From Ectothiorhodospiraceae bacterium 2226 (GTDB lineage Bacteria > Pseudomonadota > Gammaproteobacteria > GCA-013348725): DNA of 64,000 nt. Where the stretch lies: positions 1,786,501-1,850,500 of the forward strand of contig CP054689.1 in NCBI GenBank assembly GCA_013348725.1, written 5' to 3'. The notes below the pieces were generated by a model that was not told where the DNA came from, made no database searches, and worked only from the letters and a program-made list of their open reading frames with translations. The translations under genes and the position numbers were made by a program. Of the stretch, positions 17,770 through 24,760 are shown in pieces; within the stretch, counting starts at the first letter, position 1; each line of letters starts with the position of its first letter.

Positions 17770-18462
17770 CTACGCCCCTTCCTTCCTCGGCCGCCCTGGC
17801 TTTCCCGGGGCGACGCGCCGCTTCACCATCCGGGCGATCTCTGCTTTGAACTGCTCGTTGCCGAGCACGTAGCCGCTGTTTGTGGCGGCGCGGATCTGGT
17901 CGATTAGCGTCGGCTCCATGTGGGCGCGGAACAGCTCTCGGTAGGCCGCCAAGCGCCTCGGCTTGGTTCTGCCAAGGCGCGTGTAGTCGGGGTGCGGGGA
18001 GATGAGGGGGGAGGGCTCTCCCTGGCCATTGGTCCGATAGCTGGACCACGGATAGTCGGCGGGATGATCGACCATGCAGGCCCGGACCGGGTTGAGCTCG
18101 ATGTAGCGTTGGCAGGTCAGCAGGTATTGATCACTCTGGGCGAGACAGGAGCGGAAGCGGCCTTCCCACAGGGTGCCGCTGCGCCGATAGGTCCGATTGA
18201 CGTACTGGACGTAACGCTGCCCCAGGTGCTTCATCAGCAGCGCGACGCTGTCGGCCCGCTCGGGCGTTAGCAGCAGGTGTACGTGGTTGGTCATGAGGAC
18301 GTAGGCGTGGACCTGGCAACCCTGCTTCAGAGCCTGCTCCTTCAGCACGTCCAGATAGACGCGGTAATCGGCGTCGGCGTAGAAGCAGGGCGTGCGGTTG
18401 TTTCCCCGCTGGATGATGTGCCAGGGGATGCCTGGTATGGCGATTCGGGCTTGACGGGGCAT
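17770..18462 (-). CDS. REP-associated tyrosine transposase (Y1_Tnp, IS200-like)
   Basis: This is a 230-residue single-strand DNA transposase. The frame runs further upstream into the IS3 element, so the family start MPRQARIAIPGIPWHI at 18462 is used. The HUH pair is in MTNHVHLLLTPE, and the candidate catalytic tyrosine is in the LGQRYVQYVNRTY region. GTLWEGRFRS and YIELNPVRA follow, both characteristic of RAYT proteins. It would mobilise or maintain the flanking REP-type repeats. The coding region is intact, but the insertion 97 bases upstream may have changed its promoter. Confidence 0.88.
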   Translation of the reverse strand: MPRQARIAIPGIPWHIIQRGNNRTPCFYADADYRVYLDVLKEQALKQGCQVHAYVLMTNHVHLLLTPERADSVALLMKHLGQRYVQYVNRTYRRSGTLWEGRFRSCLAQSDQYLLTCQRYIELNPVRACMVDHPADYPWSSYRTNGQGEPSPLISPHPDYTRLGRTKPRRLAAYRELFRAHMEPTLIDQIRAATNSGYVLGNEQFKAEIARMVKRRVAPGKPGRPRKEGA

Positions 18463-18590
18463 TGAGTGCCCTCTTGTCGTTCGGGTTGCGTACGAAATCC
18501 TACCAGAGGCGGTACCCGTTTGGGCGCGCGAGCGCGGTGAACGATCGGAAACCGGGGTCTGAGCTAACCCGGATTCCTCGGACAGGTTAA

Positions 18591-19454
18591 TTAAGCATTT
18601 CGCCATTCGCCATCAACTTCCTCCGGCGTGCGATAGCCCAGAGTCTGGTGCAATCGCTGCCGGTTATAGTACACCTCGATGTAGTCGAAGATCGCGGCCT
18701 TGGCATAGTCCCGCGTCGGGAAGTCGCGGTGGTGCACGAGCTCGTTCTTTAGGCTCGAGAAGAAACTCTCCGCGACCGCATTGTCGTAAGCGCTCTTGCG
18801 ACCACTCATGCTGGGAAGGGCGCCCGCTGCTTGTAAGCGATCCCGATACATAGCGGCGCTGTAGGTGGCTCCGCGGTCCGTGTGGTGGATGAGGCCCGGT
18901 GGGGGCGCCCGGTGCGCGAGCGCCATGTTCAACGCAGCTAGAGCGAGATCTTTGTCCGGACGCGTTCCCATCGCCCAGCCCACCACTTTGCGGGAGTAGA
19001 GGTCGAGCAGCACCGCGAGGTTGAGCCACCCCTCCCGGGTGCGGATGAAGGTGATATCCCCGACCCACGCACGATTGGGCGCCGACGCGAGGAAACGACG
19101 CTCCAGTCTATCGGGCGCCGCCAGAGGTGTCTGGTGGTGCTCGATGATCACCCGAAAGCGGCGCTTGCGGTTGGCTTCGATGCCATCGCGCTTCCTCAGC
19201 CGCGCCACACGGTGCTTGCCACAGGGGACGCCTTCGCGGCGTAGAACATGCCAAGTCTTGAGCGCGCCGCACGCCTGTCGGTGTTCACGGTGGATGCGGC
19301 GGATCTCGATCAGGAGGGCGGCATCAGACTGCGCGCGGGCGCTAGTCCCGCGCCCCTGCCAAGCATAAAAGCCGCTGCGCGAGACCTGTAGGGCACGGCA
19401 CAATGAGGCCAAGGAGTACTGCGAGCGCGACACTGCGATGTAGGCGTACTTCAC
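18591..19454 (-). CDS. IS3-family transposase OrfB (DDE integrase core)
   Basis: This is a 287-residue rve-type catalytic half from GTG 19454, probably made mainly as an OrfAB fusion by -1 frameshifting. The acidic triad is in WVGDITFIRTREG, HHTDRGATYSA and NAVAESFFSSLKNE. An HTH_21-type segment (EIRRIHREHRQACGALKTWH) precedes it. The end YNRQRLHQTLGYRTPEEV is the standard IS3 tail. The gene looks intact, so the element may still be active. Confidence 0.92.
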   Translation of the reverse strand: MKYAYIAVSRSQYSLASLCRALQVSRSGFYAWQGRGTSARAQSDAALLIEIRRIHREHRQACGALKTWHVLRREGVPCGKHRVARLRKRDGIEANRKRRFRVIIEHHQTPLAAPDRLERRFLASAPNRAWVGDITFIRTREGWLNLAVLLDLYSRKVVGWAMGTRPDKDLALAALNMALAHRAPPPGLIHHTDRGATYSAAMYRDRLQAAGALPSMSGRKSAYDNAVAESFFSSLKNELVHHRDFPTRDYAKAAIFDYIEVYYNRQRLHQTLGYRTPEEVDGEWRNA

Positions 19455-19780
19455 GTCAGATCCTTCGCGAAGTACGCCGCAGCTTTTTTTAAGATGTCGC
19501 GCTCCTCGGTGACCCGCTTGAGCTCTCGGCGCAGGCGTTCGATTTCGCTCTGCTCGTCAAGGGGCTTGCGGCCTGGTCCACGGAAAGCGCGATCTGTTCC
19601 AGCGACGTCGAGCTGCTCCCTCCATTTATAAAGCTGGTTGCGCGCGACTCCCAGTTCCAGCGCGAGCTGGGTCGCTGGCTTCTGGCCAAGCTCCAATAGG
19701 CGTACTGCTTCGAGCTTGAACTCTTTCGTATACCGGGTGCGCAGGCGCTCCGGATTCACCTTATTCTTCTTCGTTCCCAT
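19451..19780 (-). CDS. IS3-family transposase OrfA (HTH)
   Basis: This is a 109-residue DNA-binding subunit with an HTH_Tnp_1 segment (RYTKEFKLEAVRLLELGQ; ELGVARNQLYKWREQL) that recognises the element ends. A leucine-zipper-like stretch (IERLRRELKRVTEERDILKK) for multimerisation with OrfAB follows. A run of seven A then G (19493-19500 on the complement) lies in the ILKKA codons and is the usual IS3 -1 slippery site. The OrfB frame is open from there. Confidence 0.92.
   Translation of the reverse strand: MGTKKNKVNPERLRTRYTKEFKLEAVRLLELGQKPATQLALELGVARNQLYKWREQLDVAGTDRAFRGPGRKPLDEQSEIERLRRELKRVTEERDILKKAAAYFAKDLT
19493..19500 (-). promoter_or_regulatory. programmed -1 frameshift site (A7G) of the IS3 element
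   Basis: On the coding strand the sequence reads TTAAAAAAAGC. Slipping back one base at A-AAA-AAG puts the ribosome into the OrfB frame, which has no stop between here and the OrfB start. This is the standard way the active OrfAB transposase is made in this family. Confidence 0.7.
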
Positions 19781-23915: not shown

Positions 23916-24263
23916 TCAGGCGACGCTTCCAAAGCCCCGATCGAGCGCGCCCGCGGGGGGATGCAGGCCGGCGAGTCGGCAGCCCTGGGCGATAGGCCCG
24001 CCTGGAAAGAGCAGGTATAGGTACTTGATGCCGCCCTGGGGGTGGAACCGCTCGTCGAGCGCATCGTGCAACTCACGCATGTTGATGCCTCCGTCGACGT
24101 GGCGAGCGTAGTATTCCTGCATCGCGCGCACAGCGTCCCAATGATCCGCCCCCAACGCCAACCCCTCAGCGCGGGCCTGCGCGGCTGCGTCCTGCTGGCG
24201 CCAGTGCACCGGCGCGTTCGGAAACAGCGGATCGTCGCCAAACTCATTCCCGAAGATGTCCAT
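23916..24263 (-). CDS. DsrC/TusE-family protein lacking the C-terminal cysteine
   Basis: This is a 115-residue protein from ATG 24263; the frame runs further upstream without family sequence. LALGADHWDAVRAMQEYYAR corresponds to the HW-x-V segment of DsrC/TusE, and GGIKYLYLLFPGGPIAQGC to its C-terminal region. In DsrC, two cysteines ten residues apart (CysB, then the terminal CysA) carry sulfur. Here Cys95 occupies the CysB position, but the CysA position is Ala105 (PPAGA), and nine extra residues follow. It may be a regulatory or single-cysteine sulfur carrier. It stands alone, antisense to its neighbours. Confidence 0.8.
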   Translation of the reverse strand: MDIFGNEFGDDPLFPNAPVHWRQQDAAAQARAEGLALGADHWDAVRAMQEYYARHVDGGINMRELHDALDERFHPQGGIKYLYLLFPGGPIAQGCRLAGLHPPAGALDRGFGSVA

Positions 24264-24760
24264 TGCAGCACCCCCTACGCGACTTGGTTGCCGATTCAAG
24301 TGTAGAAGAATCTGCCCACGCCAACGCGGCGCAGGCGGGGGGCGGGCGGCCGATAACGAGTGCCCCTGGGGGGCTCCAAGCGGCGCCGGACGGCAGTCCT
24401 GTGCGCGCGCGCCCACGAACGAGTCGAAGTAGATCAGCGGGGAGACGGGGCATGTCTGGCTCTTTGCCGTTACGAGCAGGGAAAGCGGGTGTGACGTGCG
24501 TATGGCGGGCGTCTCCTTCGCGACCTCGGCGTGGGCCATGCGCGTCGCGCGCGCCAGCGGCTGAGCCCTCTCAGGGGCCGACCCACGCGCCATCACCGCC
24601 GCTGGCGGACCTCTGTGGAGGCAGGTCCGCTGGCCGCCTATCATCAATAGGCCGGCGTGCGTCCCGGGTTCGAATACGGAGTCACTTCGCCTAGTAACTG
24701 CTAGTTGGGGCACGATGGCTGGCCGCATCTGCTGCCTGCGACGAACACAGGAGACCCACC
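24264..24760. other. divergent intergenic region, about 500 bases
   Basis: It lies between the minus-strand DsrC-like gene and the plus-strand CBS gene. No frame resembles a protein. A gggttcgaata stretch near 24668 recalls a tRNA T-loop, but no cloverleaf can be built around it. Confidence 0.4.

Follow-up and report, generated by a model that had tools for sequence, protein, structure and literature searches.

The DsrC-like gene and its genome context

The window, that is, the whole stretch of 64,000 nucleotides analyzed here (G000:C1:1786501-1850500, on a single contig of 2.96 Mb), carries on its minus strand a gene for a small protein, P0001, in which the earlier note recognized a DsrC/TusE family region. 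This assignment is borne out by profile comparison, with 58.4 bits for the Pfam family DsrC (PF04358, cut-off 24.9) and 55.7 bits for TIGR03342, the latter barely above the cut-off of 53.5. The gene has the following features:

23916-24263, minus strand: gene of the FG-tail DsrC-like protein (P0001), translated into 115 amino acids plus a stop codon
24270-24276, minus strand: putative Shine-Dalgarno-like sequence AGGGGGT, 6 bases 5' of the ATG, as read from the sequence
23979-23981, minus strand: codon of Cys95, the CysB position and the sole cysteine of the protein (translation and alignment)
23946-23948, minus strand: codon of Ala106, at the CysA position of DsrC (alignment)
23919-23945, minus strand: C-terminal tail, residues 107-115, including the FGSV motif (111-114) (alignment; low model confidence)
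24051-24065, minus strand: residues 67-71 (DALDE), acidic where DsrC has Lys (alignment)

The gene stands alone, with a convergent sigma-factor gene (PF04542, PF08281, DUF6596) downstream and a divergent CBS-domain gene upstream. A terminator-like hairpin, of a kind of which ∼0.5 is expected by chance, lies upstream on the same strand (24314-24336, minus). Elsewhere in the window, the stretch GGGTTCGAATAC at 24633-24680 resembles a tRNA T-loop, with no tRNA detected by ARAGORN within the window, and the ORFs at 17770-19780 (minus strand) are presumably an IS3-type transposase pair and a REP-associated transposase.

Cytoplasmic sulfur oxidation is centered on DsrC, and dsrC is used as a marker gene. 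Canonical DsrC has two cysteines in its C-terminal arm, CysB and the penultimate CysA. In an alignment of 129 sequences, Cys95 of the window protein occupies the CysB position, as claimed from the sequence, and alanine is found in the column where all 8 canonical DsrC have Cys; the reported replacement of the terminal cysteine is therefore real, although the alanine is residue 106 rather than 105, which is glycine. Ala106 is followed by nine residues, LDRGFGSVA, compared with one in DsrC, so that the arm is indeed extended, by eight residues and not by about nine. TusE, whose penultimate cysteine accepts sulfur from TusBCD, belongs to the same Pfam family and has a homologous arm, but is a mirror image of the window protein: in the Escherichia coli protein, CysB is replaced by Thr and the penultimate Cys is kept, the opposite pattern that had been pointed out, whereas the window protein has Ala at the latter position. 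Allochromatium vinosum DsrC (1yx3) shares with the window protein PF04358 membership, the helical fold, the CysB position, a flexible arm and 36% identity over 89 residues; the window protein differs in the absence of CysA, the tail that is longer by eight residues and contains FG[ST]V, the absence of the N-terminal EGY motif, the presence of D67 and E71 in place of Lys and of Q49 in place of Arg, and the location of its gene outside the dsr operon.

The contig encodes four PF04358 proteins. One is a canonical two-cysteine DsrC, with the arm ending CKYAGLPKPTGCV, and the ORFs around its gene we take to be dsrE, F, H, M and K; the gene for the window protein is ∼167 kb away from this dsr locus. 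Both dsrA and dsrB of the host exceed the curated cut-offs and, together with the two-cysteine DsrC, support the suggestion that the host is a sulfur oxidizer. A second CysB-only DsrC-like type (L003, positions 1489-1824, G000:C1:2629111-2629419) ends in PRAWSTG, with the arm ending ACKIAGLRRPRAWSTG, and has kin with near-identical arms in L032, L059, L068 and L098. The fourth protein (L002, positions 1492-1830, G000:C1:1983245-1983553) lacks cysteines and ends in KGGY, and its gene adjoins an ORF for a TauD-like dioxygenase, ∼2 kb from dsrA.

A widespread clade of FG-tail proteins

When 56 genomes were searched with the window protein, four other genomes yielded close matches, with 54-60% identity. 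A scan of genome contigs confirmed 259 stretches, and the best 80 of the 259 were analyzed. The carriers among these best 80 include Thioalkalivibrio sulfidiphilus, Thioalkalivibrio denitrificans and Parasulfuritortus cantonensis, along with metagenome-assembled genomes titled Thiobacillus, Thiogranum, Tepidiphilus and Halorhodospira. The window protein is a member of a widespread clade of beta- and gammaproteobacterial proteins, hereinafter clade P, that is characterized by an FG[ST] tail, a replaced CysA, GG at positions 77-78 and a common placement in the tree, all of which were found in the window protein. A sister grade is denoted grade Q. The two groups were delineated by the best tblastn query and score (at least 100 bits for P), with the arm included, so that the tail counts given below are partly the product of selection.

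For the tree, the arm was removed and only the body columns were used (94 columns, 127 sequences), with one in three of the best 80 loci retained; a fragment at L106 and a sequence with a truncated tail at L172 were left out of the tree and of the Q counts. All 64 P sequences fall on one side of a single branch (SH-aLRT 80), in a tree that leaves 51 of its 123 inner branches open. Outside P are DsrC, TusE and the other host paralogues, with the Q sequences on both sides between them. The phylogeny that had been proposed as a check accordingly places the window protein in clade P, apart from DsrC and TusE.

The CysA position is never occupied by cysteine among the 64 P sequences (Ala in 33, Ser in 27, Thr in three and Val in one), and the tail is nearly always kept (F111 in 61 of 64, G112 in all 64), which answers the proposed check of whether the terminal replacement and the extension are conserved in relatives. 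Because this arm is common to the relatives, a sequencing error or frameshift masking a terminal cysteine is rejected, and the possibility that all relatives have normal arms is likewise refuted. Within the body, the residues GG77-78 and D67 are present in 64 of 64 sequences and E71 in 63, these two acidic residues facing Lys in 8 of the 8 DsrC. The N-terminal EGY/EGF motif that is typical of canonical DsrC was found in none of the 64 P sequences, whereas a related motif is present in 8/8 DsrC, 6/6 L003-type and 3/3 L002-type sequences as well as in TusE; the corresponding count for Q still took in 31 sequences.

Cys95 is present in 61 of the 64 sampled P sequences, the others having Ser, Thr or Ala. 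The QGC motif at this position occurs in all of the best 80 of the 259 loci, a biased count because one of the two peptide patterns used in the contig scan contains QGC; in the tail of the same loci, FG occurs in 79 and YG in one. The less biased count, from whole-protein searches, is 34 of 37, four of these sequences (L006-L009) having been part of the profile used for one search. Exactly one cysteine is present in 42 of the 64 P sequences, and none at all in two. In grade Q (29 sequences), CysA is absent throughout, F111 is present in 28 and G112 in all 29, but Cys95 in only seven, and at least eight changes of Cys95 presence are required on the tree across P and Q. Thus, the family is defined by its tail to a greater degree than by the thiol; the extension, which the earlier note treated as a side detail, is real and is better conserved than the cysteine.

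Predicted fold

The AlphaFold2 model, built from 49 sequences (pLDDT 86, pTM 0.77), predicts a DsrC fold for the window protein. The top structural matches of the model are a DsrC-family protein of Acinetobacter baumannii (7syb, Z 9.6), A. vinosum DsrC (1yx3, Z 9.3) and chain C of desulforubidin (2xsj_C, Z 8.4), followed by matches with Z of 4.0 and below. The mean pLDDT is 77 for residues 101-110 and drops to 44 for residues 111-115, which suggests that the FG tail is probably flexible, as would fit a peptide that becomes folded upon partner binding.

The weaker structural matches (Z 2.5-4.0) include the DNA-binding proteins PerR, Zur and AraC. A regulatory role has been proposed for non-canonical DsrC homologues, and binding to dsr promoter DNA for DsrC itself. 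The P proteins could, then, be transcription regulators of sulfur genes that act via the helix-turn-helix-like DsrC core, a role that appears quite unlikely, considering that these Z values are within the chance range according to the structure-search tool, that the helix around residues 67-71 is acidic where that of DsrC is basic, and that the median pI of the P sequences is 5.17. The RspA-type proteins, which are DsrC-like proteins lacking both arm cysteines and are possibly regulatory, resemble clade P in being non-canonical PF04358 paralogues of sulfur oxidizers; by this general definition, which is the basis of the comparison, P would differ in that only CysA is missing, with CysB kept in 61 of 64.

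Distribution and gene neighborhood

Among the matches listed, P proteins (at least 120 bits) are encoded in 39 of the 369 class genomes, from 22 family codes by hand count, and dsrA is present in 37 of these 39 (two as fragments; 35 of 39 with fragments excluded) compared with 81 of the 330 genomes without P. The Fisher test value of 2e-18 is merely descriptive because the genomes are related to each other. The two remaining P carriers have neither dsrA nor dsrB in their assemblies, one of which is 81% complete. The P family is, therefore, almost restricted to reverse-Dsr sulfur oxidizers. Conversely, 81 of the 118 genomes with dsrA, among the matches listed, lack P, which implies that P is dispensable for the pathway. 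This patchiness and the solitary position of the gene in the window could be taken for signs of a decaying paralogue or a sequencing artefact, an explanation that is hardly credible in view of the ∼50-65% identity across many families and the invariance of tail and body residues. As a separate observation, DUF6866 (PF21739) is represented in 80 of the 369 class genomes, 72 of which have dsrA; the host copy is at G000:C1:1954660-1955112 (L189).

Gene clusters around the best 80 of the 259 loci included no general partner of P, and among 40 P loci of class genomes, no recurrent neighbor was found, where, apart from P, the one cluster represented in more than four loci is mixed and occurs in nine; a conserved operon is accordingly rejected. 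In 11 of the best 80 of the 259 loci (L038, L042, L047, L049, L064, L069, L070, L072, L082, L085 and L101), a tandem TusA fusion is encoded just upstream of P on the same strand (in L085, it is cut by the contig end, with part visible), and the one fusion tested contains PF01206 twice. Five of these loci (L064, L072, L082, L085 and L101) have a TauD-like gene downstream, and in four (L064, L072, L082 and L101) a canonical dsrC is ∼6 kb away. This arrangement, which ties P to sulfur relay, was seen in loci that, judging by record titles, are mostly from betaproteobacteria and may represent few events. None of the 40 class-genome loci has a tandem TusA, with a single TusA in one, and the search of the host genome yielded no tandem TusA gene but three matches with the length of one domain. 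The combination seen at the host L002 locus, a gene for a Cys-less DsrC-like protein together with a TauD-like gene, is also present close to P in L064, L072, L082 and L101, and an ORF resembling DUF6866 is divergent from the tandem TusA in L047, L049 and L070 (family confirmed for L047).

Possible functions of the P proteins

According to passages of PMC3397948, Cys111 (CysA) is the only cysteine of A. vinosum DsrC that takes up sulfur, Cys100 (CysB) being unable to do so by itself, and the CysA-to-Ser variant loses sulfur binding and binds DsrEFH far less. Because the sulfur-accepting CysA is gone, the P proteins cannot perform the two-thiol chemistry of DsrC, and because CysB alone takes no sulfur in A. 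vinosum DsrC, loading in the manner of DsrC is unlikely. The good conservation of Cys95 indicates that this residue has a use. The P protein is a distinct DsrC paralogue that lacks the sulfur-carrying cysteine and probably assists or regulates sulfur relay. This bears on annotation: a widespread paralogue that is incapable of DsrC chemistry, yet scores above the NCBI family cut-off, will end up annotated as a sulfur relay protein.

We tentatively favor a role of the P protein as a docking or regulatory adaptor, with a single thiol, of the cytoplasmic sulfur relay. The helical body and flexible arm of DsrC are kept in the P protein; binding to a partner from the TusA/DsrEFH/Dsr chain would be via this body and the conserved FG[ST]V tail, and the single thiol of Cys95 would become persulfidated or engage in a mixed disulfide and so tune partner binding. 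In favor of this role are the DsrC fold of the model, the grouping of P in the body tree, the missing CysA together with the conserved Cys95 and G112, the near confinement to dsr genomes, the tandem TusA loci, the failure of CysB-only DsrC to bind sulfur and the probable flexibility of the tail. Speaking against it are the lack of a recurrent neighbor, the isolated gene ∼167 kb from dsr in the host, the dsrA genomes without P, the two P carriers without dsrA and dsrB in their assemblies, and the possibly few events behind the TusA linkage. The tail is retained even where the Cys95 thiol is lost.

Ranking second, and possible but rather unlikely, is the proposal that a TusA-type donor supplies Cys95 with sulfane sulfur for onward transfer, in a side branch of the relay. 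Here, the earlier suggestion of a dedicated single-thiol carrier is upheld in its link to sulfur oxidation, given the presence of dsrA in 37 of the 39 carrier genomes and of the tandem TusA in 11 of the best 80 of the 259 loci, all 11 with Cys95 (the scan pattern partly selects QGC), and Cys95, found in 61 of 64 P sequences, is often the sole cysteine. Direct exchange of sulfur between TusA and DsrC in vitro, described in passages of PMC13293266, points in the same direction. The part of the suggestion that implies DsrC-like loading is weakened by the loss of sulfur binding in the CysB-only A. vinosum variant (PMC3397948, in part) and by the three P sequences without Cys95, two of them cysteine-free; furthermore, Cys is present in only seven of the 29 sequences of grade Q, which has the tail, and a carrier function leaves the tail unexplained.

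The preservation of the DsrC body, the lack of CysA throughout the 64 P and the 29 Q sequences and the near confinement of P to dsr genomes would also befit a decoy, as suggested in the earlier note, or a brake that unreactively occupies the DsrC docking site on DsrEFH, DsrAB or DsrK and limits flux. This is improbable because D67 and E71 replace Lys residues that are invariant in the eight DsrC and the EGY motif is gone, so that DsrC surfaces are not simply mimicked, and because CysA is a strong determinant of the binding of DsrC to DsrEFH, as reported in the passages of PMC3397948.

A further, doubtful possibility is that the FG[ST]V tail is a previously undescribed docking peptide entering the channel of DsrAB, DsrK or DsrE that normally takes the arm of DsrC, with Cys95 persulfidation as a switch, which would amount to sulfane-sulfur sensing and direct gating of reverse-Dsr flux; the mostly Cys-less Q proteins would then be the unswitched form. 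Should the P proteins, as in the favored adaptor role, regulate the relay or, alternatively, branch it, they would offer a handle on the control of reverse-Dsr flux. Clean tests are possible, with separate changes of Cys95, of the tail and of D67/E71.

Related proteins in sulfur oxidizers, viruses and plasmids

Extra and single-cysteine DsrC homologues are already on record. In A. vinosum, four extra DsrC homologues with no assigned function are encoded outside the dsr operon (PMC3368242), and transcripts of four homologues change on pyrite (PMC11267869); the Solemya velum symbiont also has extra DsrC homologues with no assigned function (PMC4287430). As described in these papers, they are, like P, extra copies in sulfur oxidizers, the comparison being by description. 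In the literature searched, mostly open-access papers, no paper that names the FG-tail type came up.

Like P, the viral dsrC_1 group reportedly has no second cysteine at the C-terminus (PMC4164917, in part), and one of 141 phage DsrC has the first cysteine motif alone (PMC8190135, in part). No P-type relatives were confirmed in viral contigs, and a single record among the 50,697 in INPHARED gave a match, with 37% identity and 56% of the query covered; a phage-borne gene is therefore rejected. Plasmid matches comprise 14 records, all partial and with <60% identity, and, where annotated, the gene under the match is tusE.
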